Part shown: in pieces, positions 3,201 to 56,969 of the stretch | Layout of the letters: every line of letters begins with the position of its first letter | How positions within the stretch are numbered: the stretch's first letter is position 1 | Assembly: GCA_900618425.1 (NCBI GenBank) | Contig: UZAN01040018.1 | Coordinates: 2,426 to 66,425 of the forward strand | DNA from: Echinostoma caproni | Taxonomy: Eukaryota > Platyhelminthes > Trematoda > Plagiorchiida > Echinostomatidae | DNA: 64,000 nucleotides | Reading direction: 5' to 3' | Made by a program: the position numbers and the translations under genes | Notes under the pieces: model-generated | Databases searched by the model: none | The model's input: the letters and a program-made list of their open reading frames with translations, nothing else | Told to the model about the DNA's origin: nothing

Positions 3201-4170
3201 AACCCCAAGTTTGAAACGATACTATCGACGCATCGATCTCCACGTGTCAACGTGAACGGCTTTCTGACGGACTGCTTGAAAAGCCCTCTCATGTGTTTCG
3301 ATAAGCTTTTGCGGAAGGGGCCTGTTCACGATAGCACGGCTGTTAGGGGTTGCGCTCAGTCTGCGATGAGCGATCGTCCATTCATCGTGTACGTGTTCGA
3401 AACCCAACACCGTCGACTTGCTCTTTTATGTATCATTTTATAAACCGTTGGCTTCTGAATATGACCTTTCAGAATGTTTATTATACAACTATTGCAAATA
3501 ATTGGAGTAAAGAGAAGATTCAACCCTGAAGGGTCACATACGTTGGTTTGTACAATTTATCCGGCATCCCATGTTGGTACATTTTTACAGGTGCATACTG
3601 CACTCCAGATGATTTCCCTAGTTAGCGCTAAACACAGTGCTCTTCTCCCCATACACACATAGCAAAATTAAAGCGTTCAATCCGTTTATCTGTTTGTCTG
3701 GATCAGTTCAAGTCATTCACAACATGATAATTCGCCAAAATACGTTGAGGTCCTATCCATTAGCAATGTCTAACCCAATCTAAGCAAACAGCGAAATTCG
3801 AACCTTTTTCGATTCTGTTTTGTTCATTGCTGCTTACGATTTTATCTCCGTTTCCATTGCGTTATTTCACCAGATTACAGTGTATTAAACATTCATCACT
3901 GCTTTCTTCTGTCTCTTACTACCCCTGGTCCCAAAATGTTATGTTTCTGAATCACCTTATAGCACATTGTTGTGCAGAATCAGATGTCGTTCCGAGAAAG
4001 CGATAATGTTATTGACGTATGCTAGTGTATCGGACTGTCCAGAAAACCTGAACTACTATGTGTTGCAAATGAGAAACCGATTAAAAAAACTCGGTTTTAC
4101 AAATAGTAAATGAGAATTGTACAGTTTGCTCTTATCGGAGCAGCCCAAGTGAACACGTGATTATTTGGGC
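300..4170. other. No gene recognised
   Basis: This stretch is AT-rich with short open frames only. Apart from the CG run at 1985-2003 I see no domain, RNA gene or repeat that I can support. Confidence 0.4.
1985..2003. repeat. (CG)n dinucleotide run
   Basis: Nineteen bases of strictly alternating C and G lie in an AT-rich region. Alternating CG is the classic Z-DNA-forming sequence. No gene is attached. Confidence 0.95.
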
Positions 4171-38053: not shown

Positions 38054-40183
38054 ATGAGGAACAGTGCACCTAAGGTACGTATACGACAAAATCATCTGGC
38101 CAATTTCATGGAATTCAAATCCATGGTTACCGGTACGGCCTTACAACTACTCCATGATCCTGATATTTCAGTCTTCTTTGAAAGCTTCACTAGTTATCTC
38201 AACTACTATTATGATGTGTGCTGCCCTAAAAAGAGAATTCAACTACAGACCAATCGATTCATCTCTGATAGACTGAAATGGTTTCCTAGGCTGAAAGAAA
38301 GGGCGTATCGCTGAAGGGATAAAATGACCGTCAAATCTGTTCACTTCCATATCAGCGGTGAGATAGCTCATCTCAATCAGTTGTATGTTCACACCGTGCT
38401 AGAGTACAGGTTCTGCCGTCAGCTGCGGAACGGACTGAAGTTGCTCGGTGGTCGTTCAACTTTACAGCAATGGGCTCAAAAATCTTTTGCTTCAGGGAAT
38501 AATGTTGTGCAAGCATTACCGAGTCCAAATAAAATGTCACTTGATTTTCATTTCCCTGTGACTGTCATACCATAGGAATTTTTAAAGGAGTTGAATACTA
38601 TCAACAGAGATAAATCCTCTGGTCCTGATGGGTTATCCCCAGTGTTCCTAAAACATGCACAATCCACCTCACACAAACCATTTTATTCATCTCCAATACA
38701 TGTCGGTCAGAAAGAAGACTATTTAACACATGGCGTGATGTTCGCATCACTTCAGTACCTAAGAAAGAAAGGGACAGATTTCGGCGTATTGCTTCATCTT
38801 CAGTATTACGTTTGAGCGAATTATTAATAAGCATCTAATCTATAACCTTCATTTTCGTGATTCCAAGCAGTTTGTTTATTGTAAGCTCTACTTTAGATGT
38901 GTTTTTTTGTCTTACCCGTTCCATTTTATTCACTATAGAGCAAAACCAAAATTTATCATGCTTGTTTCTTGGATTACACAAACGTGTTCAACTCTGTTGA
39001 CAGAAACATACTATTGCCCCTTTTGCCGCAATATAAGCTTTTGCGACATCTTTTGAATTGGATTCACGGCTACTTGACCGACCGACGTCAATATACTAGT
39101 CTCAATAGTATAGGGTCCTTTAGTGTTACTGTAAACCAGGGTGTAATACAGGGTGCAATTTTATCCCATTTTCTGTTCTCCTTTTATATCTAAAATTTGC
39201 CAGTCACCCCAAATGTTTTCAATTTTAAATATCCCAATGACATAGCAGTTGGAGGTGCAACTCACAATAACAACCCTTTAATGGACCCCCTTCAATTAGC
39301 CAGAAGTTTCATTCATGAATGGCACGATGGTGTTGACCTTTCTTTGAATCCAAACAAATGCATTGAAATTTTGTTTTCTGTTTACTGTAGGCCATCAACA
39401 CTTTCTGGATCATCTGTTCCCAACATCTTAATCAGTAACCTAAAATTTAAAAGGCCACAACACTTCAAACATCTTGAATGTTTTCTGTCTGCTGACCTCA
39501 AATGGTCCTATCTCTTATAACAAACATTTTTAAAGTCAGAAAGTTGGCCTTTTATATGTCACGCCTTCAGTATCTGAGAGTGTCATTGTATATCACTTCT
39601 AAATTTATTTTTTGGAGCGTTTTATACCATTGAACCTACTGTTCTCCCGTTATCTTCGCCGTCAACTGTCTAAGGATTTTATATTAATTGGACGCTATCT
39701 GAAAAGCAACTCAAGATATGAAGCTGTATCTTATGAGTAGCTGGTTGGTTCCATTGTCAATCAACACCTCAAGGTGTGACCGTCTGTGTGACTCAATCTT
39801 GTCCAATGCATCACTCCCTAACACTCATCCCTATCTCGCTTCATTTCAACTTCTGACATCCGCGATAAATTTAAACCTTTGCATACTCGTACCACTGCTT
39901 TTCAAAACTCCGTTTTACCTTGTCTTTCACGCTTGTTGGTTTCCAGGGAACGCATATCCAACGATTTTATACACAGTCTAATGTAAACTTTCACCCTGAC
40001 ATTTTCTTCCTTTTTTACGCCTTATCAGTGTCATCCTCATTGTCATGTAAGTAACTATAGGTTATATCTTTGAACTAATTTTTAATAGCGTGCATGCCAA
40101 AGCAAAAGTGATAACATGCTTATCACTGAAAATTCTGTCCACATTGAATGAATACATTGCACTCTTGACTTGACTTGACTTGA
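38054..40183 (+). mobile_element. CR1/Jockey-type LINE, 5'-truncated, degenerate
   Basis: RT blocks appear in order: the linker (LKWFPRLKERAYR), DKSSGPDGLSPVFLKH near 38610, DYTNVFNSVDRNIL near 38970, GVIQGAILSHFLF near 39150, and KYPNDIAVGG near 39227, where the catalytic YADD is now YPND (39230-39241). LSLNPNKCIEI and PQHFKHLECFLSADLKWS follow. The frame breaks several times. The element ends with four CTTGA units (40164-40183), probably its microsatellite 3' tail. No endonuclease domain was seen. Confidence 0.75.
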
Positions 40184-42308: not shown

Positions 42309-45300
42309 GTAAGTTCACCTTACCAACTGATGATTCACTCGTCGGGACATTCTTGTGTGGATCAAATGATTTCTAAATGCCTTAGTGAATAAACACTTGT
42401 ATTGGTGCCAAAGTAAATAGTCTAAATCAATGAACACAAGTGATGTAACTTCGTTCGACGTCTGTGTTCCCAGATCGACACTGGTCTTGATAAAGCTTCG
42501 AGATGATTGCATGTTTGATAAGGGAAACTTGCGTAAATATTTTTGTTGGGTAATAATGTGACACAAATTTGCAAAGTTATAAAGTAAATAGCTTTAGTAA
42601 TATTTCATCTCACTGATTGTAATTTCCTTTTCATAATTTTTGACTCTCAAAAATTAATGTTTATTTCCGGAAGAAGTGTAGGTGATACACGGTAATTCCA
42701 ACCAGTAAATGTAAATTTTCTTAACTGATGTCAAAATAATGTGAACGGGAGGAAAGTATGTATAATGCTGACATCTACGACCATCTTGTTAGAGTTAGTA
42801 TACCTCTCTCCTTCCATGGGATCATACTTGAGGAGAACTCATAGGTGACTAGCAATCGCATGCAACTTGAAGCAACAGCCATATGGGTCTATGGTACTCG
42901 GATTATGCTTTGCAAGTCAAACAAAATGATACGCATATTTACACATGGCCATACTCGTGAAATCGCAATCGCCATCGATTGCACCAAATTAATCGGACAA
43001 TTAGGCACATATCCCAATAACCAAGTTTTCTCCACAATCGGTTTTTATGTTCACATGCACACCCAGTACCCAAAGCCAGTGACGACTGAGAAAACCAAAC
43101 TTTGTGTTATTGAGCATACAATCTACTTTCTTCCTTTATTGTAGACACACATTCAGCTCTGTGTTCACAATCATTTCCATGTTATCCGAGTCATAAAGTG
43201 TGCCACATGACTGTCATGTAATCGTGGATTGTGCTCCAAATTAAGCGTTTGTTGCCCTCTGATTGTTGATTGGGTGTGCTTTGGATCACACGATCTGAAA
43301 TTCAAACTCGGTTATCGCTACACGTTTTCCGGTTCACTAGTACACCTTGAAATGCGATGGAAATGTTTGTACAAAGAGCAATTGACAGCTTCTTCGTCCT
43401 GTTTGGGACTCGCCAGCAATGCGTACTTTTTGTGTCCCTGTCAGGGCATTCGGGTTGGGACTCCAAACCCGCAACCATGAACGAAACGGTCAATGGTTAC
43501 CACAGTCATTTCCATGGCATTTGAATATATTTACCTCTTGGGGATTGAACGATCTCCCAAGGAGTGAATGCCAATCCCAAGACTATCAAGAGGGCCAGAT
43601 GCGTCTGAATAATCCAATGGGCTAATCCTATAAATACTTTAGACGTTACTACATCTGTTCAGTGTCTTGTCCTACGTGTTCCTATATCCAAACTATCAAG
43701 CTCATCGTCTGTACTGTGCGTTGGCTAGGGAATGTAAAATAGGAATGTTGGTTGCTTGGATCGCTAAGTCCGGGCCTGACTAGGCTACTTTCACGACGAG
43801 TGGTTAGCAAATTCTTTTCAGAAACACATCTCGTTGTTTGTGGTTAATTTCAACTGATGATTGGGTGTAATTATTAATGATCATTCCAACTCAGTAACTA
43901 TATCTACATTGACTTAATGCAATAAGTCCCACTCAAGCTAAGCAGATCAGTCCGTTCTTTCAACCTGGTAAAACTCGTTTCAACGGAGACAAATATTTTG
44001 ATCAGAAAAGCTGAAATAATCTTATGTGTTGTCTACCAATCCATTTANNNNNNNNCAGTAAATATGATCCCTCCAGTGAAGCTGAAGCGATCGATTGGGT
44101 GAATAAGCTCACCGGTGAGAATGTTCCTCTTGGACGCGAGAATGTGTGTGCAGCGTTGAAGAATGGCCAAATTTTGATCAAGTGAGTCGTTGATAAAGAT
44201 TCTTTCACATTTTGGTTAACTGACTACACCTCTATTCAAAACTATAAAAGAAGCGTGTTTGCAAGAGTTTTGTTTCTTTATACTTCATTCGTCTTGCTAG
44301 GCAGAGGAATATTACCGTTGTTAAGCATACAGTTACCTGCGTGACTGTTTGTTTACTCTTGGGTGAAGCATGATAGCTAATTTTACAAGACTACCTACAA
44401 AAGCTGGTCCAGCTTCTGACAACTAAGTTCAATTGACAAACTGCTTTATTTAGTTTGGGATAGAAAAACATATAAGCGGAACAACCAATATCCATGGGTA
44501 ATAGTATAAAAATATTGTAAATTTTAGTTCGGTGAATTTTGCACGTGGATACACAAAGCAGTCAATATACACCAAATTCTAATTGAATTACTGGTGCTCG
44601 AGCATGAGTGACTAAGTAAGGACGCAGTTCATGGAGTTTGTAAACGTCTTTTACTCGCGACAGGAAAAAACATTCGCGCTTCTTGCAAACATCTGCTTCA
44701 CTGGTGAAATATCTACCATATTTATCAGTAATCTAATCGAGATCGAGTGGAATTTCTTCATTGGATATTGTTTTGCAGTCTGGTCTCCGGTTGGTGGACA
44801 TATTTAATACTTTGATTGATTATAAACTATATCAACCAGGTGAATATAAAACGACGGTTTGTAGTGTTACACAATCCATCCAGTTTACGCTGTAGATGTT
44901 TGGTTTACTAGGACAGAGGCTAACGCCAAACAGCTGGACGTGGACTTAGAGATGGGATATGGGGTCAAATGTGAGCGATTATGAGTACAGAGTGGTAACA
45001 AATAAAGAGGTGTGCTGACTGAGACGGTGATTCCCATACTGAGCTAAGACAAGGGATTCAATAATGTGCAACATACCCCAATGAAATAATCGTATTGCGA
45101 GCGAGCACCGATGAGTCCAGTTGCCCGAATGAGCAGGAAAGGTTGTTACTCTACTCTCATTTTGTTTAGGTTCATACGATTAGACTTAAAGCTTCAACCC
45201 TTGGTTCAAAATAATTGGCCAATAGATCATCACTTTAAACTAGAAAGTGTTTGGAAACCATATACGCCTACTCACTAAAGTAATGCCTGCCTGTCCTGGA

Positions 45301-48300
45301 CCACTTGATTAATCTACTCATTTAGTCTCACCCATTATTTTCATCCATGTCCTAATAAGCTAATATGGGCAACAAACAAGATGTCAGCGGACCATAGAGA
45401 AACCAAGACATGTGTTTCGAACAAAAACACCAGAATGCGATAAAATACAATTTGAAGGAAATATTCGAATGAACCTAAAACATGATTTAACGTTTCAATT
45501 AAATTATGATATCATTCGACATACCACTGATTGGGACCGGTGAACAATTGATGGATTTCGTAATATTCTTTGTAATTATTTCAACTGACTATCCTTCGGA
45601 CTTCATCTTCAGGCACAATCCTCAGTTCATCTATTCAACCATACACTCAGAAGCACTAGACTCGAGTTTCGCTCTTATCAGAGCTCATCAGTAGTGCATA
45701 TCCACCGTCCGGCCTTGTAGGTTCCTTGGCGAATCAGCTCTGCATTGAAGTCCTGACTTAGTAGTAGGCTTTCGATTCGGATTAACAGATTGTCATCTGT
45801 CTTTCTTTGTTGCTGTCGGGTCAAATGAATTGACTATCATTAAAAAAGACACCTAAACAAACATGAATTGGTAATTTGGTTCAACCAAGGTATGAGCTGG
45901 TTGACTCAGTGGTAATACACACGCCTTTCAGAGATCAACTCGCGGACGGAACGGTGGATATGTACTACTGATGAGCTCTAATAAGAGCGAAACTCGAGTC
46001 TAGTGCTTCTGAGTGTATGGTTGAATAGATGAACTGATGATTGTGCCTGAAGGTGGAATCCGAAAGATAGTCATTTCAAATCAATAATAATCAATTATGC
46101 CACACTACCACACATAAGTAACTGTGAGTTAAAAGCGAACGTGTAATATCCGAAAACTTTTACCTGGGCACGGTTCCTACTGATCGAGATACACGAAATT
46201 ATTTTCATATTCAGCTTGAACATACAAATTGTGCCATAATTAAGTCTACGGAAATTCGACGAGAGAGCTACGGGATCTTCGCATAGTAGGAGACATTTCT
46301 CTGGTTAAACTATACCATGATCCGTTAGGATAGACTGTCTCACAGTTTCATTCACATTGCACCTGATNCCTGATACAGTTACCTCTTGTGCGACCTCCGT
46401 TCAGTCACTCTCAAGTTCTGAATGATTTCAAAGCAGGTAACTTGGCCGTTTTTTTCATCTATGCTATGGAATAAACCGGACATTTATTCTATTTGTACCT
46501 GTAATTGATAAACTAAGACACCTCTACAGTGTGTAACATAATTCACCAGAAAACTACTCGGGTCGGACATTATATGCATACACACGAGATGTGTGCTTGC
46601 CTGTCCCCATACCTGTCAGTCTTTTAACCAAACTTGATGTAAATGTATGTATGCAGCTGATGAGATTACCGCGAAATAGCTGAATTCAACACATCCTGTG
46701 ATCATAATGCTTCTTCTTGCTCTCATAAAAATGTTAAAGGGAACTGGTTGCATGAAATTCCTAATGAATTCAAGAGAACTCAAGATATTGACAAGTCCTT
46801 GGAATGAAAATTTTACTGTTGGGTGAGCTGGATAGTATGTGTGAAGTAAAATGGGCTAATCCAAACGGCAAAATATATTACCCATCGTCCTAAATTTTGG
46901 GCAAATTATGGATGTTAACTTTTATTCAATACGAGTTCTCCTGCAGTTCAATCAACCGACTCCATTATCGTTCTTTTGCAATGTAAGATACATCAGACAA
47001 ATTTATTGGTTTTCCATCACCGGTGTCCCTTTCCCAACGGACGACAAATTGTAACTAAAGTCCTTACATCGATCAATTCATCCATGGCGGTAAATTCAAT
47101 AGACTGTATTCTACATCCCGTGTTTTCAACAGGAACTATAGAGCGCTTATGAGGACACTGTTGTCTGCAAAGAAAGTAAATATTTAAATGTACGCACAAA
47201 TTACGCTCGGGATAGTCGGATAGTTTGTCCTCAGCGTAAAAGTTCAAGTGGAAATCAAGCAGTGGCTCAAGACGTTCTCATGCCTCACACCCAAGATTAT
47301 TCACGTATTCCTCAACCTTCAAAGGTTTAATTTGTCACCCTTGGCAACCTCATTCGCCATTCAGCATGAATACTGTCTGTGGTATTTAACCGTACAATAC
47401 TTCTGTACCACTTGCCTGCATATTTGCATCTATACACATATAAGTATCTCAACAAATCTATAGTCACTCAAGTCCGTCATCTTATTTTAATGGAGGTGAA
47501 TAGGAACATTGTCGTTACTCAGTGAAAAGTAATTAGTTTTACCCTTTAGATTTTTCCAATAGCTTTCTGTTATTAGTAAGTTGTCAATGTGCTCACTGAT
47601 CTGTTCTAAACAACCGTTTTCCCAATCTTTATCGCACCTGTTCAGACTTATCAATGCCGTCTATGCTGGAACGCCTGAGCTGCCGGCCTCCGTGGGCAAG
47701 AAACGACATCCGTTCAAGGCCAACACAATGAGTGCCCCATTCAAACAAGTGAGTGGACCGAATTTAGGATGAGGGACCGCGTTTTCTCGGGTGTGCATTT
47801 ATTGAACATGGTGAATCTCCGCAATGGAACAGATATGATGTGATCTGATTGATAGAATTTGGTTATTCTGTGATCGGGAGCTTCCGTGAATACTCGATGA
47901 GAATTGTGGATTTCGATGGTATCCAAATATCCCGGAATTAGCAAATGTGATTGATTTGACTCGTATTGATGCGGAATTGTAATAACTGATTTCCGCAGGT
48001 TGTATATCATTCCATTTGATAGGTATACGAATTGAATTGAGGCCGCTACCAATGACAATAATATTCATGATAACAGTAACGATAATGTTCTTGTTTCCGA
48101 CCCCAACCACAGATGGAAAACATCCAAATGTTCCTGAATGCAGCCGCTGCTTACGGTGTGCCACCTGCCAGTCTGTTCCAAACTGTGGATTTGTATGAAG
48201 CACGAAATATGGCTCAAGTGCTGAACACAATCTTGCAACTTGGAACTGAGGTATGCAAATGTCTGACGCCGTGAAACTGGGTGCTGATTTTTCATTTTGT

Positions 48301-51300
48301 CTGCCTTTAGAGAAACTAGTAGCCGTAAGGTGAATGTGACTGGAGCAGTTTTCCTCACTCTCTTTCTCTTTCACTCTGTTACACTTGAATGCGTCATTCA
48401 AATAATATGTAATACGAGTAGCCGTTGACCGTGAGAACCTATGTCATTTGTTGATATTTTGAGATTTTTTCTCTTTCTGGCTACAACCAAGCACGCCAAT
48501 TGAAATGGTATTGTTACCAATTATTGGAATACTTACTGCCTATTAGCTCCGTAAAAGCAAACGCATTCTGATAGGTGATTACCAAAGGTCTGACGTAGGC
48601 TGTGTGATATCATGAACAAGGGTATTTCTTACGACTGCAAATTAAACATGAACAGCTTTATTTCACATGATGACTGCGAGACGATTTAATGCTGTCATAA
48701 AAATGAGGCAACTTCCAAAAACTACACAGTGTACACTGCACGACAAAATCAGAAGACCGCCTTATATAACTATGTATTTAATTTGCAATGTCTAAACTCA
48801 CCGTCCTTTTTAGGTAGTGATACCTAAAACTACGAACACATTTTTCATTTCCAAAATCAATGAAACAAACTGTGACTCACCAAACACGAAATGATTTTGG
48901 GCCAGTTAGAGATGCATCATACAAGTCTATCTGGTCCATGTGATTCTTACAAAATATATTTGATTATAACTTCATCTGCAGCTCTCTCTCTAATTATCAT
49001 ACTGTCCAAAACTGATTTCCATTGTCATACAGTGTTCTTTTAATGAGGCTCCAACAACAAACAGCTTCGGTTCGCCCTGCGATAAGCAGACAGGGTTTTT
49101 CTTGCAATCAGAGTTGTGCCAAACCTGCGCACAAGTTATTCTTCTTGAATAAGTTTAAGAGTAAATTTGAGCGGTTGCCATTTAACCTAGAGATCACTTC
49201 ATCTACAGTGATCGTCAAGGCAATCTTCAGTTCATATCGAACTTCAATTGATCATCCACCATTCCGTCCAGTAGCTTAACCAAATTAAAGGCTCTTTTAT
49301 GATTGCTCATTTCGAGAGTAGGCAAGATAACTGATACTTTGAAGTTGTGACCAAAGACTAAGTGGTCATTCGTCCATTTTAGTGAACCTTATTTCATATC
49401 ACGGCTGAGAGCCGGTTTGGTGTAGTACATATCGAAATCAGACAGATAGGTTTTACGGGTTGCAACGCCGTGCCGACTGAAAATTCCACTAATTTATTAG
49501 TGGTTAGGGGTTAGGATTATATCGGTGACCTCGGAGTAATGAATCCAACTCATTCCTGTGTAATCCATCTTCCTCATTATTGCGAATTCCCAACCAGTCT
49601 GTGTTTGATAACATTCGCTTTCTAAAAATTACCTTTCATGCTCAATAAACTAAAAGCGGAAGTAGAACATAATTCATTTTGAAACGGAGCACTTAGAATT
49701 TCACTAATGTTTCCCAGTTTGAATCAACTCAAGATGTACTTTGCTTAGAACAACCCGTTGTATTTATCGTAAAATCAACTTAAGAGTGTTGTAATTGCGC
49801 TTTATATGACAAATCTTTATATACCAGGAATCTTTCCAAGTTCTACTTCAAATTATATTTTACGTGAAAACTGAAAAGTTCTTGTTATTTAAAGGCATTC
49901 TAATTGCGACTCTCCTAACTTCGAATGATAATGCGTAACATGTGGGAAGCGTTCATTTGAAGGGAATACGTACCGAACACATCACAAAACAACTAAGTAA
50001 ACTCCAACGCGGTGAAATGCTGGGGTATGTGCTATGTCATGGATTCGTATCGAAGAAGAGTTCGAGGAATCGCGGCAAGTGGTCAATGTTCATAACATTC
50101 ACACCGGTTCGACGTGGTACACTGGCATTGGGAACAATGCTTGCGCAATCACACTGCGAGATATTTAATTTTTCAATGAACTAAAAACAGGACTTCAATG
50201 GATAACTTTTTCTCAACGTTTCATTTGCGGTGCATGCTCTTCGGGGCTTTACAAACCTGCCACTTACTTTTGGCTGCAAAATCGAAGTTTCTATGAATTG
50301 TACCTACGGAAGGACGCCCAATGGAAATTGGTATGCAGTTCGTGAAACTGAGATTGATCACGATCTGATAGGTCGAACAGTGATTGTTAGGTACTTGTTT
50401 TTGATCCCAAACGATATCGAAGAAGTTAACAACCAATACACCCTATTATAATGTAATAGACCGAAGGTTTTCTAACTTTCTAAGGTTGTATTTTGGGATG
50501 CTCGATCCTGTACAGGTTGTCCAAAGTCCATGTTTGAAAGCTTTAGAAATAAAATGAAGCAGTTCTTCTGATCAGACGCAAATCGCCGATGATGGGCAAC
50601 TATTTCTCGTTCCTTTTTACAGTGCCAAAGAAATAATTTCAACGGCCCTACCTGCGGACCAAAACCGACGTATGAGAATAAACGTGAATTCACTGAGGAA
50701 CAACTTCGTATGTCGGAGGGTATCATTGGCCTTCAGGCTGGTACTAACAAATTGGCCAGTCAGGCTGGCATGAGCCACGGAGGTCCCCGACACATCACCG
50801 ACATCAAGGTGGATGCCGCAAGCAAGGAGGGTCAAGGTGTGATTGGTCTACAAATGGGTTCGAACAAGGGTGCTTCCCAGGCTGGCATGAGTCATGGAGG
50901 TCCGCGCCATATCACTGACATCAAGGTGGATGCCGCAAGCAAGGAGGGTCAAGGAGTGATTGGTCTACAAATGGGTTCGAACAAGGGTGCTTCCCAGGCT
51001 GGCATGAGTCATGGAGGTCCGCGCCATATCACTGACATCAAGGTGGATGCCGCAAGCAAGGAGGGTCAAGGTGTGATTGGTCTGCAAATGGGTACCAACA
51101 AGCTTGCTAGCCAAGCCGGTATGAGCCACGGAGGTCCCCGGCACATTACTGATATCAAGGTCGATGCTGCCAGCAAGGAAGGCCAGAGTGTGATTGGTCT
51201 ACAAATGGGTTCGAACAAGGGTGCTTCCCAGGCTGGCATGAGTCATGGAGGTCCGCGCCATATCACTGACATCAAGGTGGATGCCGCAAGCAAGGAGGGT

Positions 51301-51519
51301 CAAGGTGTGATTGGTCTGCAAATGGGTACCAACAAGCTTGCTAGCCAAGCCGGTATGAGCCATGGAGGTCAAAGACACATCGCTGATATCAAAGTGGGCG
51401 AAATCTCCAAAGAAGGTCAGAGTGTTATTGGAATGCAAATGGGTCTGAGCCAGGATCAAGTTGCTTCCCAGTCAGGCATGAGTTTTGGCGCACAACGCCA
51501 CATCGTTGATAGTCATTGA
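42258..51519 (+). CDS. Calponin/transgelin-family actin-binding protein, five exons
   Basis: This gene encodes a muscle-type protein expected to bind and stabilise actin filaments in the cytoplasm. The coding exons are 42258-42308, about 44056-44181, 47646-47748, 48113-48250 and 50623-51519. Introns have GT-AG ends and the visible phases agree. About 440 residues result: a short N-terminus beginning MANRMTD, a SKYDP motif, one CH domain of the calponin type (W31, LKNGQILIK, FKQMENIQMFL, FQTVDLYEARNM, LQLGTE) and a linker (KREFTEEQLRMSEG) that resembles transgelin. Seven CLIK repeats follow (IGLQMGSNKGASQAGM type). Vertebrate calponins have three such repeats and transgelins one. Nematode UNC-87 has seven but no CH domain. 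The ATG at 42258 was chosen because the N-terminus resembles the family and runs in phase to a strong GTAAGT donor. The splice acceptor of exon 2 is lost in an N gap. The family call is very sure; I assign no specific symbol. Confidence 0.96.
43370..43485 (-). mobile_element. Decayed antisense ribozyme SINE in intron 1
   Basis: The minus strand reads a B-box-like GGGTTTGGAGTCCC, then CCCTGACAGGGACACAAAA, then a hammerhead-like region (plus 43378-43422). That region has an intact stem II GTCC/GGAC and GTC, but core CTGGCGA and GAAG in place of CTGATGA and GAAA. It is homologous to the copy at 33340-33520 and almost certainly not catalytic. Confidence 0.65.
44048..44055. other. Eight-N gap at the exon 2 splice acceptor
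   Basis: These Ns directly precede the first readable codons of exon 2 of the calponin-like gene. The true acceptor and up to two codons lie within or just before them. Confidence 0.95.
44056..44181 (+). CDS. Calponin-like gene, exon 2 (start of CH domain)
   Basis: The visible frame reads SKYDPSSEAEAIDW and then LKNGQILIK, the first part of a calponin-type CH domain. The first readable codon is AGT at 44057. The acceptor and perhaps one or two codons lie in the eight-N gap at 44048-44055: using the visible CAG at 44056-44058 as acceptor would give an immediate stop in phase 0. The exon ends in phase 2 at ATCAA|GTGAGT. Confidence 0.92.
45576..45725 (-). mobile_element. Inverted, 5'-truncated copy of the ribozyme SINE
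   Basis: The reverse complement of this stretch aligns to 45943-46090 with roughly nine differences and a one-base gap over about 135 bp. The tRNA-like head is not recognisable, so the copy appears truncated at its 5' end. With its partner it forms a head-to-head inverted repeat with a spacer of about 220 bp. Confidence 0.75.
45653..45697 (-). ncRNA. Type I hammerhead ribozyme, intact core, antisense in intron 2
   Basis: Read on the minus strand: GCACTA (stem I), CTGATGA (core, plus coordinates 45685-45691), stem II GCTC/GAGC with loop TGATAA, GAAA (45667-45670), a stem III of one to two pairs with loop TCGA, GTC (45659-45661), then TAGTGC. Stem I is a perfect six-pair helix. It differs from the plus-strand copy at only two positions across these 45 bases. 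It would be made only from an antisense transcript. Confidence 0.85.
45890..46090 (+). mobile_element. SINE-like element with tRNA-like head and hammerhead body
   Basis: The head contains an A-box-like stretch, TGGTTGACTCAGTGG (45898-45912), and a weaker B-box-like AGATCAACTCG (45932-45942). Together they suggest a tRNA-derived RNA polymerase III promoter. The body is the hammerhead at 45962-46006. A tail of about 80 bp follows. The element has no coding capacity. The layout matches the schistosome Sm-alpha type of ribozyme SINE in kind; I cannot say they are the same family. Confidence 0.7.
45962..46006 (+). ncRNA. Type I hammerhead ribozyme, intact core, sense in intron 2
   Basis: All parts of a minimal type I hammerhead can be seen in order. 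Stem I 5' strand GTACTA (45962-45967) is followed by core CTGATGA (45968-45974). Stem II is GCTC/GAGC with loop TAATAA (45975-45988), then core GAAA (45989-45992). A very short stem III follows with loop TCGA (45994-45997), then GTC (45998-46000) with predicted cleavage after C46000, then stem I 3' strand TAGTGC (46001-46006). Stem I pairs with one G-U wobble. The short stem III is the form reported in schistosome SINE-like repeats and Penelope-like elements. Activity is inferred from sequence only. Confidence 0.85.
47646..47748 (+). CDS. Calponin-like gene, exon 3 (CH domain middle)
   Basis: The acceptor CTGTTCAG precedes 47646. One base completes the lysine split with exon 2, followed by 34 codons beginning LINAVYAG and ending APFKQ. 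The exon ends in phase 0 at CAA|GTGAGT. The peptide continues the CH domain without a break, which confirms the splice pair. Confidence 0.94.
47749..50622 (+). other. Introns 3 and 4 of the calponin-like gene
   Basis: Intron 3 (47749-48112, 364 bp) is short. Intron 4 (48251-50622, 2372 bp) is long and AT-rich. I recognise no repeat or RNA gene in either. The range also contains exon 4. Confidence 0.85.
48113..48250 (+). CDS. Calponin-like gene, exon 4 (CH domain end)
   Basis: Forty-six codons start MENIQMFLNAAAAYGV, include FQTVDLYEARNM and end LQLGTE. This is the last third of the CH domain, including the conserved F-x-T-V-D-L motif. The acceptor is CCACAG and the donor GAG|GTATGC, both in phase 0. 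A 200-codon open frame on the opposite strand over this exon is a shadow. Confidence 0.95.
50623..51519 (+). CDS. Calponin-like gene, exon 5 (seven CLIK repeats)
   Basis: The acceptor TTTTTACAG precedes 50623. A 29-codon linker ending EFTEEQLR leads into the repeats: R1 50719-50835, R2 50836-50952, R3 50953-51069, R4 51070-51186, R5 51187-51303, R6 51304-51420, and a shorter R7 51421-51516. The stop is at 51517-51519. Each full unit is 39 residues (117 bp): the actin-binding IGLQMG.N..ASQAGMS core and a spacer GG.RHI.DIKVDAASKEGQ. R2, R3 and R5 are almost identical, and R4 matches R6 over its first half. R7 carries a two-residue insertion and a diverged core. Confidence 0.97.
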   Translation, partial: CQRNNFNGPTCGPKPTYENKREFTEEQLRMSEGIIGLQAGTNKLASQAGMSHGGPRHITDIKVDAASKEGQGVIGLQMGSNKGASQAGMSHGGPRHITDIKVDAASKEGQGVIGLQMGSNKGASQAGMSHGGPRHITDIKVDAASKEGQGVIGLQMGTNKLASQAGMSHGGPRHITDIKVDAASKEGQSVIGLQMGSNKGASQAGMSHGGPRHITDIKVDAASKEGQGVIGLQMGTNKLASQAGMSHGGQRHIADIKVGEISKEGQSVIGMQMGLSQDQVASQSGMSFGAQRHIVDSH

Positions 51520-52689: not shown

Positions 52690-53825
52690 CCAATAATTCT
52701 GCATGGCTTGCGATTCGGTTTTGGCAATAAACCTGTACACATCCATCCAGTCATGGACAGGCAAATTAGACATCAGTTTTAGTTTCCAAGGTAAAGCTTA
52801 TCGACAAACGTACGATGTGGTAATGGGAAACCCCATGGGGTCTATCCTAGCTAATTTATTCGTCCAGAAGTTGGAAAGCGAGGCTGAACACATTCTAGAC
52901 CTGTTTACATTATTAGGAAGATAAGTTGATCATATACTCATCATAAGACAAGACCGACGACAAGTCACCTCTTCTTTTCGAGTCATGAACAGTTTGCACA
53001 TGAATGTACATCTCTCACTGAAGGAACAACAAAACGATTGCGTCGCAAGTTCAGACATTCAAATGACAAAGAGGCAAGATGGAACGATTAGCAGGGCCGT
53101 ATACCGCAAAAGTACATGGACTGGTCAATACCTACAAGTTCTTGGTCTCGTACCACTCAATTATAAGTGCGGTATAGTAAAAACACCATTCCGTAGCCGT
53201 ATTTGCAACAAGGATAGTCCAAAAGCGAAGCTAGACCTACTCCAATCAATTATTGTCAAGAACGGCTACCCTGGCAGTTTTAGTAAGAAGTTCAGTCGGA
53301 CACCGAGCAAAAACCTGAAGTAGATTCAACGTCTCCAAGAAGAAAGTCTACATTTGCGTTCCCCTCAAAGATGATGATACCAGCTCGATCATCCAAGATC
53401 CATTGAAAAATATGACAAAACTCTCTTATAATGCTACCAACCCAAGCGTCCTGTACACAATCACATGCAACCCTCCTCCACTCACAAAGAAACTCCTACC
53501 ACTGTCCGCCAAATCATTTACCAATTTGAATGTGAATGTGGAGCATCTCACATTGGCAGAATAGATAGGCAGTGGCAGCCAAGGATCCAGGAGCACATCC
53601 CATGTTGGGTTAGATGGACCGAATCACACGGTTACAGGTCATTCTCTAATTTGATTCCTCAAATCCATGTATACACGTACCACCGACCACTAACACACAC
53701 GAACATTAAACCAGTACAAATCCCCACGCGTACCCAAGGACACCGAACACACAAACAACCTGCGTCATCTGTAGCTCGAAGTCTTTTGATGACGCATCAT
53801 GATCCGGTCCCGAGAAGCTGAATGA
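52690..53825 (+). mobile_element. Penelope-like element remnant 2, RT plus GIY-YIG
   Basis: The frame at 52703-52924 reads YRQTYDVVMGNPMGSILANLF, a Penelope RT block. The catalytic YVDD position now reads stop-V-D-H (52922-52933), so the enzyme is dead. The frame at 52985-53323 contains AVYRKSTWTGQYLQ, the VYRK.T.T..YL block of the family, and GIVKTPFRSR. The frame at 53465-53821 contains IYQFECECGASHIGRIDRQWQPRIQEH, a GIY-YIG endonuclease remnant with the paired cysteines. It begins about 1.2 kb after the calponin-like stop codon, in the same orientation. Confidence 0.75.
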
Positions 53826-54469
53826 AGATCATTAGTCTTACACCAACCTCCGGCTGCTCAGGTTTACGGAATCGATTGTAATCGGAAAATGAAAACCTGA
53901 ACTGGTTGTGCTAGATTACCTGTCACTCACACTGTCACTGCGTTGGCCATGGCAACAGTGTGATGATTCGACCCTGTCCTATTCATGTGTAACCTGATTT
54001 ACTGTCCAATGATGTAAACCGTAGTTTTCTGCTGTTTATTGCATCAGTTGAGATGAAGAGAAGTCTGCCATAAATCATGCAACCTAGCTCTTTTGTGCTC
54101 TCTCTTCCGGTTTATCTCGGAAAATGAATGCATCAATTATGGAATAATTAGAATTTGGCACAAATGATACAATCCATACTGGACCGAGCAAATACGACGA
54201 TTCGATGATGATACACTAAAGAGTAATCTCTGCTTGGACTTACCAACAACGCAGTCGTAATCATGTACACCATCCGTACATATTCTTAGATGACTGATAC
54301 AGTTCCCGGCATTGACCAGGGGCACACATGGAATAAAAATGCAGCACAGCGAATAAGCTTATTTTCGGTGACTCATCAGCTGACTAATGCATCACAATTT
54401 ACATAGCATTATTTTGAATAGAACAGAGGAAGCAAAATAAATGAATGTTATAATGGAGATTGTTGTTGT

Positions 54470-54622
54470 TGTTGTTGTTGTTTTCCGTCTCAATTTAATA
54501 AAGTGGATTTGGCTGAACTTACCACTTGTGTGATTTTCGGTGAATTGGGGAGGTGGACGGTCATGAATGATTTCACAAATTCCTCATGGGTGCAAACGTG
54601 TGTGTGTGTGTGTGTGTGTGTA
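54470..54622. repeat. (TTG)n and (GT)n microsatellites
   Basis: A TTG run spans 54470-54482 and a GT run spans 54598-54622. Open frames over them on both strands are low-complexity and were not called. Confidence 0.9.
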
Positions 54623-56969
54623 TGTAGACATAATGCGCCCGCAAAACCATTTGCGAAGTCACTGAATATCCTATGGCCCTTCACCTCCTCTCCTCTTCCT
54701 CCTCCCCATCCCACCCAAAATCACATAAGCAACAAGGACCAAGCGTTGGACCCGATGATGAGATCAGCCATATCCTGTGTTGTTAAACTGAGACCGAACA
54801 GAACAACAACAAAAATTTTCATTTGAATGTTCATTTATTTTTTTTTTAAATTTTTTTCTATGCAAAATGATGTGATATAAAATATGATGTATTAGCCAGT
54901 TGATACAGTTGTTTTATGTTTGGATAATGTGCACTAACTTCGTGTATTGTCCGTCATCAGGTTTGATCTTTAGACCGTCAAAATGGAATGATTCGAGTAG
55001 TACAAAATTCCAATCCTCCCGGAGGTTAGCGTGAACCAAAGTTGACGAAGACTTGTCCTGATTAGGGTGTTATAGATCAATATCATCGTTTAGGCCGACA
55101 CTGACTTGACAGAGCCCTCAGAGTCCAAGTTCAACAGTTTTCGAAATTTATCCTTCTCCGAACAATAGTGAATGATAGTATGGTACTTTAAATACAAGAG
55201 TTACCATTGCGTCGGCAACAAGCCGCTGATCAGGGCTTTTCTGGTGGGGGCTCAGCGTGAATCCGGAAATCGACCAAGCCAATCGAGAGCGGAACGTTCA
55301 AAAGCAGAAGTTCCTCACTGCGTCAAGTGAACACGCGAAAAGTAAAGAATCGTCGCAGCGTGCATGTGCACATGAGCCCCGTCAGACAAGCGGGTAAGAC
55401 AATTAGATCATCATTACAGGAGAAAGCGAACTACAACGTGATGCGGTTAGGGACAATGGTTAGGAGAGCGGGTAGGATAACACGAACTTGGTAGTTGGAA
55501 TGAAATGAAGCCGTTGTGGTGGATGAGAAGCTCCTGGTTAGAACAATATATTGTTTTATCGGTAATCGAGTGACAATGAGGTGGCTAAACAAATTTGTGA
55601 ACGGGAGTGTGTTAGTTGTCGGATTCAACACCGCTACTCTGAAGCCTGCACGGTTTCACCTACTGCTTCACTCGTTCATATTTGTCGTGGGTTCAACAGT
55701 AAGCGAAAATAGTACTATATACTTTTGCCAGGACCACGAATGCCAAAAGCGGGGACAGCTTACTCATGACCGATGCGCCGTTTTCACTTGGCGTTGAGCA
55801 CAAAGCGCACAGTAACTAATGCATCGTCTGCCTGAAGTCGTGAGTCTTAATTCGACGAAACATGTAGCCAATCTCCCTAAAACTGCCACCCGAATCAACA
55901 CAGTGGAAGCACGTGATCGGAAAATGACCGGTTGGGCACAAAGAAGTACAGTTTAGAAATGGCACAAATGTTGTTTAAAATGGCCTTGAATCAGAACGAT
56001 CCTAGATTTAAAACTGATTTCATGATCAGTATATCAGCATGGACAGNACGGACTCACAAATACTGAACAGCACAGCGGAATTCGGTGACACTTTCATACA
56101 CTGCTACGGGCTATCTGAAACCGCACATGCTAGATACAAGTGAGCTGTACTTTTCTTTTTTCTATTATAGCATGCTGCAGTACATTCCTCCTTTCGTTGT
56201 AATATACCTCCTAGTGAACAGAGTTGGTAATAAACCCTTGGACTTAATGTAGCCCTACTGAACGCAATCTGGAGTGAAGTAAGCCAGCGTCTTTCTGCAG
56301 AGGAGCATAACGTTAGGATTTAACAAATTTGCGGTGATATTTGTAGGAAACCAGGGACTACTGAGGTAAATTTGGAAGGAGAGTAACTGTAATCAAAATA
56401 TTTACCTGACAGTAATGTGGCAGTAATGTAATGTACTGCGCAACATTCGAACATTACGATCTGATTATCGAGAAAGAGAAAATGCAATTTGCAGGTGAAC
56501 GGCGATCTACAAAATCTAAATCTCCCAATATGTGACTGCAGTATTTGAAAAACTACTATAACCTTTGCGGTGCCCCACTGAGTTTCGAGCCTGCTGCTGT
56601 TGATAACTTGAATGCAAAAGAAAGTAGGAGAGGGGAGGGACCTCCAGCATGTTAGTGATTGTAAAGCAATTTAGTTACAACTAAAAAAAAATATGCGGAA
56701 CACGTGAAGTGTGAACAGGTCGGGCTAAACATTCAACTGCCCCACAACCGCTACGTCGTGCAGTGACGCTATAAGTCAAAATGGAGAGATGGCAACGAAC
56801 GAGGGGGTTGATTGTCTTACAATCTAATGGTAATTGTGGGTTTATTTTGTGAGACAGACAGGAGAGATGAGGAGGAATAGAAGCAGGAGATTAAAAATTG
56901 CCACACGCTCAATGCTAATCGTATTGTAATAAGAAACGCGACAGTTGGGTACCCTCTGTTTTTGAGCAG

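Follow-up and report, generated by a model that had tools for sequence, protein, structure and literature searches.

Opposed hammerhead ribozymes in a calponin intron of Echinostoma caproni as the probable footprint of a single SINE insertion by Penelope-like machinery

The two opposed hammerhead ribozymes located in a calponin intron of Echinostoma caproni most probably represent one insertion of an Sm-alpha-like hammerhead SINE with a tRNA-like head, which, judging from its anatomy and that of its relatives, would have been placed by the machinery of a Penelope-like element (PLE). The opposed motifs point to the machinery that moves ribozyme repeats, and not to a switch in a muscle gene. The analyzed stretch of DNA (hereinafter referred to as the window) comprised 64,000 nucleotides of contig UZAN01040018.1, and related copies were searched for in the whole assembly (426.5 Mb, 12,689 contigs).

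The host gene was identified as calponin from calponin repeats at 50593 to 51516 and from exons of the CH domain. Its best protein relatives were fluke calponins and myophilins, and the calponins of Clonorchis, Schistosoma, Fasciola, and Paragonimus were about equally close (84–86% over 70–73% of the query). Comparison with the Clonorchis protein placed the element between exon 2 and exon 3, bearing out the first-pass annotation, which had assigned it to calponin intron 2. An inverted repeat of 136 nt (45573 to 45708 and 45951 to 46086; 92% complementary, 242 nt spacer) lay within the element, and the following features were mapped.

44055–44181, plus strand: calponin exon 2, encoding the first half of the CH domain and followed by a GTGAGT donor (CH match at 16.3 bits, under the curated cut-off for that piece)
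45560–45566, no strand: candidate target-site duplication, left, GTAATAT (7 bp)
45569–46139, no strand: whole insertion (571 bp), a 5'-truncated inverted copy facing, head to head, a direct copy of nearly unit length
45569–45708, minus strand: inverted, 5'-truncated copy, with an outer end of the short type (end mapping)
45649–45702, minus strand: type I hammerhead of the inverted copy, core 45691–45659 (RF02275, 33.1 bits, E = 2.5e-6; motif scan)
45709–45894, plus strand: direct copy, 5' head region, abutting the inverted copy
45895–45956, plus strand: degenerate tRNA-like region with an A-box-like TGACTCAGTGG and a damaged B box (boxes labeled by eye)
45957–46010, plus strand: type I hammerhead of the direct copy, core 45968–46000 (RF02275, 34.4 bits, E = 8.9e-7; motif scan)
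46001–46086, plus strand: 3' arm, from the hammerhead cut site to the short-end position
46087–46139, plus strand: AC-rich tail, on the right arm only, with an outer end of the long type; the stem-loop common in the family is damaged in this copy
46143–46149, no strand: candidate target-site duplication, right, GTAATAT (7 bp)
47647–47748, plus strand: calponin exon 3 (start approximate), ending the element-bearing intron (open reading frame list compared with the Clonorchis protein)

The element was larger than the 45576 to 46090 originally given for it, since the right arm continued into a further tail of about 50 nt; its left end was placed to about 10 bases, and to 45578 by the strictest scoring. 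The candidate duplication GTAATAT was imperfect and did not quite coincide with the mapped ends, lying a few bases away, and is weak evidence for the window copy alone. Another candidate, ATTTCAA, was rejected because it sits within the element's own 3' sequence. The longest open frame overlapping the element had 63 codons, and no coding sequence for a reverse transcriptase (RT) or an endonuclease was found in it, so that the element was not classed as a PLE itself.

Both window copies had the type I core CTGANGA...GAAA...UH with stem II and an open stem I, and no further core was returned when the 64-kb window was scanned with strict hammerhead criteria. The motif scan and the Rfam E-values thus confirmed that a SINE-like repeat carries two type I cores with a tiny stem III, one per strand. 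On the minus strand, cleavage was predicted between 45659 and 45658, and on the plus strand after C46000. The covariance-model check that had been proposed was likewise positive by E-value, with RF02275 (Hammerhead_HH9) matching both arms at 34.4 and 33.1 bits; nothing in the window reached the Rfam gathering score (52 for RF02275), and the other copies of the family also remained below it. Hammerhead_HH9 is presumably one of the amniote intronic ribozymes. In the folded RNA of the element, the arms paired with each other in one long hairpin (−285.6 kcal/mol, z −23), and both ribozymes would therefore be held in duplex. Minimal-stem-III hammerheads of the schistosome W elements cleave in vitro, as passages of PMC8490949 describe, which makes it plausible that an isolated arm of the window element would be catalytically active. 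PLE hammerheads may work as dimers or with the help of protein, according to passages in PMC7761336 and PMC11167929.

The window element belonged to an interspersed family of ribozyme repeats numbering hundreds of copies. The exact hammerhead core pattern occurred 163 times in the assembly and the tail pattern, with up to 2 mismatches, 534 times, whereas the reversed-pattern controls gave 0 in both cases. With the 515-nt query, 11 loci besides the window aligned over 500 or more of its 515 nt at 73–79% (among 40 scored of 3545 candidates). Two samples were used for mapping: 40 copies cut out mostly for their likeness to the window element, and copies picked by the exact core, for which 30 loci were fetched and 27 were kept besides the window, one duplicate being dropped. 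The repeat unit was 459 nt long in the tandem copy L060, in the order head, tRNA-like stretch, hammerhead, 3' arm of about 90 nt, tail of about 50 nt, and next head; L065 and L071 were also tandem. No tRNA was called in the window family by ARAGORN or Rfam. The well-kept copy L074 aligned with the tRNA-Gln-like head of L092, a member of a second hammerhead family described below, and none of 500 shuffles aligned as well; the corresponding counts were 4 of 500 for L049 and 248 of 500 for the window copy, which is too damaged. The copies point to a template that had not been cut at its hammerhead and that often measured about one unit. The near-unit length of the long cDNA could fit a circular template, but the 5' ends scattered over about 120 nt, one of the references used contained an inverted arm, and the 40 copies scored with the 515-nt query had been selected for length.

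The arms decay neutrally. Only 14 of 46 full arms that had not been picked by their ribozyme kept the core and stem II, and conservation was 0.930 at core positions vs 0.901 in the rest of the arm. A core hardly better kept than its arm is the pattern expected of decaying copies. No compensatory stem changes were found within the window family. Across families, as read by eye, stem II was GCTC/GAGC, GACC/GGTC, or GTCC/GGAC, and stem I was GCACTA/TAGTGC or GCACTG/CAGTGC.

Head-to-head copies with the 3' ends outward were found at 38 of 68 mapped loci, namely 14 of the 27 core-picked loci, 23 of the 40 similarity-picked loci, and the window; no locus had the 3' ends inward. The arm ends fell mostly into two clusters about 45–50 nt apart; of the 102 mapped, 49 belonged to the short cluster and 37 to the long one (86 together). 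One short and one long end were present in 24 of 25 hand-listed pairs. Strict automatic scoring, which classed 22 of the 38 pairs and left 16, gave short/long in 20, and 23 of 200,000 label shuffles reached that number. Permissive scoring gave 25 short/long, five long/long, and one short/short among 31 pairs (binomial P = 3e-4), with one end outside both clusters in 7 of the 38 pairs. Exceptions to the one-of-each tendency were L054 (short/short) and L064 (short/short by strict scoring), and among the permissive long/long pairs, L042, L052, and L058 became short/long by another scoring and L012 and L078 stayed ambiguous. In the permissive short/long pairs, the longer copy had the short end in 16 cases and the long end in 9, indicating that the end rule is independent of which copy is longer.

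The flanks of the 25 hand-listed loci shared a longest stretch of 7.32 nt on average, vs 4.97 nt in re-paired flanks, whose highest mean among 200 shuffles was 5.64 nt; per locus, this stretch ranged from 4 to 12 nt, and single loci were often ambiguous. From these shared flanking repeats and the end rule it follows that both arms entered together, as one insertion. The element had first been described as an inverted SINE pair with arms about 93% identical; the opposed arms stood, at 92%, and the notion of two SINEs gave way to that of one insertion unit. The same arrangement occurred at dozens of loci whose flanks and truncations differed and whose arms had diverged, which makes it unlikely that the inverted pair is an assembly artefact.

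The tail itself was AC-rich, with a mean A+C content of 63% over 37 long-end tails vs 47% in the L060 unit. A stem of at least 5 bp was possible in 29 of the 37 tails (mean fold z −1.9). Covariation in the tail hairpin was weak, with 92.1% of cells paired, two pairs changed on both sides, and the score reached by 26 of 500 shuffles; in the window copy, the tail hairpin folded no better than shuffles. At four loci (L012, L027, L029, and L058), the tailed partner was little more than the tail. These tail-only partners look as if reverse transcription from the long site had run into the short-site cDNA on the same RNA.

A second hammerhead family in the same genome had a comparable layout. With a broader core pattern, 838 exact matches were obtained (control, 0), most of which, among the 100 listed, belonged to two further cores; these 100 also included four places with opposed copies less than 500 bp apart, all in the order minus then plus. 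In L092, which represents the second family, both arms matched Rfam Hammerhead_1 at 49.9 bits (threshold, 34), and a tRNA-Gln head was called by ARAGORN in L092 but not in L093 or L096. Among 40 scored candidates, the ends clustered at query positions of about 5–7 or 34–38, corresponding to a tail of about 31 nt. The family formed 19 head-to-head clusters, and one more without class. Both ends were classed in 14 clusters, a number that includes L092's own place; 12 had unlike ends (in 3 of them with the short end roughly placed, at query 49–52), one was long/long, and one was short/short, and 1381 of 100,000 shuffles reached 12. Some copies matched the query arm at 99–100%, and the second family is younger than the window family. 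It was represented by L092 to L096 (C451, C520, C485, C596, and C687), and it included near-identical copies, tandem and head-to-head layouts, and a tail of about 31 nt. A third core, with stem II GTCC/GGAC, was seen in L097 to L099 (C682, C439, and C518), and scored 54–56 bits with Hammerhead_1, the top of the scan.

The PLE machinery is named as the mover because the features of the SINE match published features of PLEs. In passages of PMC3846280, an adjacent inverted terminal copy (inverted pLTR) is described as typical anatomy of Penelope, together with a target-site duplication of 8–10 bp and a 31-bp tail on one inverted pLTR, and the parts of PMC6155905 and PMC7761336 that concern Penelope state that its terminal repeats carry hammerheads. 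The first-pass annotation had known of no paired, opposed arrangement of this kind; it is typical of Penelope elements in the account of PMC3846280, and opposed pairs also exist elsewhere in the same genome. In vitro work on an anole PLE showed that both target strands are cut and extended, and that two adjacent internal RT starts, located mostly in an AC-rich stem-loop, delimit the tail (PMC11167929). In that element, RT starts 111–118 nt into the ORF and the hammerhead cuts at 26 nt, about 85–92 nt apart (PMC11167929). The distance from the cut site to the short end of the window element was close to this spacing, at about 90 nt. The PLE-type insertion features found here were the head-to-head inverted terminal copy, the tail at one end, and, in the group of 25 loci, the short target duplication.

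On this basis, insertion may be envisaged as follows. An endonuclease would cut both target strands, and reverse transcription would prime on each of them at a position inside the SINE RNA that lies downstream of its hammerhead, starting at the short-end site on one strand and about 50 nt further on the other, across the AC-rich stem-loop. One cDNA would span about one unit and the other would halt early; the two would then join head to head, and gap filling would leave a short target duplication. The opposed ribozymes would thereby be two copies of the element's 3' region, and the hammerhead, if working, would process the element's own multimeric or circular RNA and not calponin. In the PLE in vitro work, the start site was the same on both strands (PMC11167929), so that the one-of-each tendency is not predicted by that work.

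Two other routes to a head-to-head pair were weighed against two-strand priming. Chance landing of two independent SINEs might be suspected from the 30 of 68 loci that were not head to head and from the 8% difference between the window arms, but this is very improbable and largely refuted: 38 loci were head to head and none had the 3' ends inward, the outer ends were unlike in 20 of 22 strictly scored pairs, group-level shared repeats flanked the entire structure, and the second hammerhead family showed the same pattern. A fold-back of one cDNA, by self-priming or template switching, would fit the varying truncation point of the inverted arm, and passages of PMC3846280 propose such a process for Penelope palindromes. 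It should, however, repeat the same end type, yet the two ends differ, and the PLE enzyme cuts and extends both strands in vitro (PMC11167929); we therefore regard fold-back as unlikely, though less so than independent landing.

The first-pass annotation had further proposed a self-controlled calponin switch, in which the ribozyme on the plus strand would cut calponin intron 2 except when masked by the antisense arm. Both cores were intact in the window copy, as at none of the 8 other loci having two full arms, and no other opposed pair occurred among the 100 listed of the 163 exact core matches. Moreover, schistosome hammerheads with a minimal stem III can cleave, and intronic hammerheads conserved in amniotes are described in parts of PMC6155905. 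Nevertheless, with 14 of 46 arms intact, both would be intact by chance in about 9% of pairs (roughly one in eleven), the arms fold on each other, and the family is scattered genome-wide in decaying copies with a core hardly better kept than the arm. No evidence for the switch was found, a domesticated intronic switch is extremely improbable, and a role of the ribozyme in calponin expression is unsupported. The duplex of the arms could alternatively be an RNA-editing target. Insertion by two-strand priming remains the preferred reading of the window pair.

Open reading frames with RT and GIY-YIG domains were present in the genome, with 145 GIY-YIG matches, many of them short, and inverted repeats flanked the GIY-YIG region in 3 of 10 places examined. 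The SINE unit gave nothing better than E = 1.0 against 13 loci (10 GIY-YIG places, several truncated or damaged), and no intact hammerhead was detected by motif scan in the 10 GIY-YIG places, nor by Rfam on 9 of the 13 loci. No PLE copy with the SINE termini was found among these places, and it is from anatomy that a PLE is proposed as the mover.

Several decayed structures were recorded in these places and in the window. The inverted repeats flanking GIY-YIG had a SINE-like layout (L089, 1558–1665 and 3534–3641; L090, 2255–2319 and 3304–3368; L086, 1–232 and 1821–2053). L089 also contained, by eye, GACC..GGGTC-GAAAC, resembling a damaged hammerhead, some 77 nt ahead of the end of the 3' repeat, and an inverted tRNA-like pair (3881–4157; 83% over 282 nt; RF00005, 46–49 bits) downstream of a damaged RT and GIY-YIG element. 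In the window, a decayed Penelope-like fragment with RT-like and GIY-YIG-like parts was seen by eye on the plus strand at 52697–53820, where Pfam gave no match, and a decayed reverse transcriptase lay at 38576–39520 on the plus strand (RVT_1, E = 2.2e-4 for 38939–39190, below the curated cut-off). A further inverted repeat was found at 54375–54519 and 54761–54904 (71% over about 150 nt).

On balance, we lean slightly toward a broader proposal, in which fluke hammerhead SINEs of the Sm-alpha kind would be obligate parasites of PLEs. The hammerhead and about 140 nt would mimic the start region of a PLE, each insertion would use both internal RT starts once, one per target strand, and the head-to-head copies would be fossils of two-strand priming. 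If this is true, the mover of animal ribozyme SINEs and retrozymes is named, and a rule of one start site per strand emerges that is absent from the PLE in vitro work (PMC11167929). Two findings appear to be new within the portions of the open-access literature covered: ends of the PLE type on hammerhead SINEs with a tRNA head, and the tally of one short and one long end per pair. With such ends present in two families of ribozyme SINEs of the same genome, the guess that PLEs are the mover becomes countable and testable, and the one-short/one-long tendency provides genomic evidence on the priming of both target strands. To our knowledge, priming of both strands is known from a single enzyme, in vitro. 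Annotators should read opposed ribozymes within a gene as an insertion footprint first, and as a regulatory device only if this is demonstrated.

The Sm-alpha and Sj-alpha elements of schistosomes are likewise short interspersed SINE-like repeats with a type I hammerhead. An origin from tRNA-Gln is given for Sm-alpha-like SINEs in passages of PMC2770079, and it matches the head of the second family (ARAGORN, L092). The window family differs from Sm-alpha in its GCTC/GAGC stem II, minimal stem III, sub-gathering Rfam scores, degenerate tRNA-like region, and longer 5' part, and inverted ends with one tail were not encountered for Sm-alpha in the portions of the Sm-alpha literature covered. Type I hammerheads also occur in the RECK and CTCL introns of amniotes, and the window copies match HH9 best in Rfam; the amniote hammerheads are conserved in named introns, as parts of PMC6155905 report, whereas the window copy is one of many decaying repeats. 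With PLEs, the family shares the inverted terminal copy, one tailed end, a short duplication, a hammerhead upstream of the tail, and an AC-rich stem-loop. Unlike PLEs, the SINE encodes no RT or endonuclease, and it shares no termini with the 10 GIY-YIG places; its tail is about 45–50 nt long, and that of the second family about 31 nt, vs 30–40 given for PLEs. Metazoan (non-LTR) retrozymes are similarly small non-autonomous units with a type I hammerhead, and the window family also has tandem copies, although its unit (459 nt in L060) is slightly longer than the approximately 170–400 nt stated for metazoan retrozymes in parts of PMC7229834. The same parts of that paper present PLEs as a strong candidate for the mover of metazoan retrozymes, on circumstantial grounds (PMC7229834).
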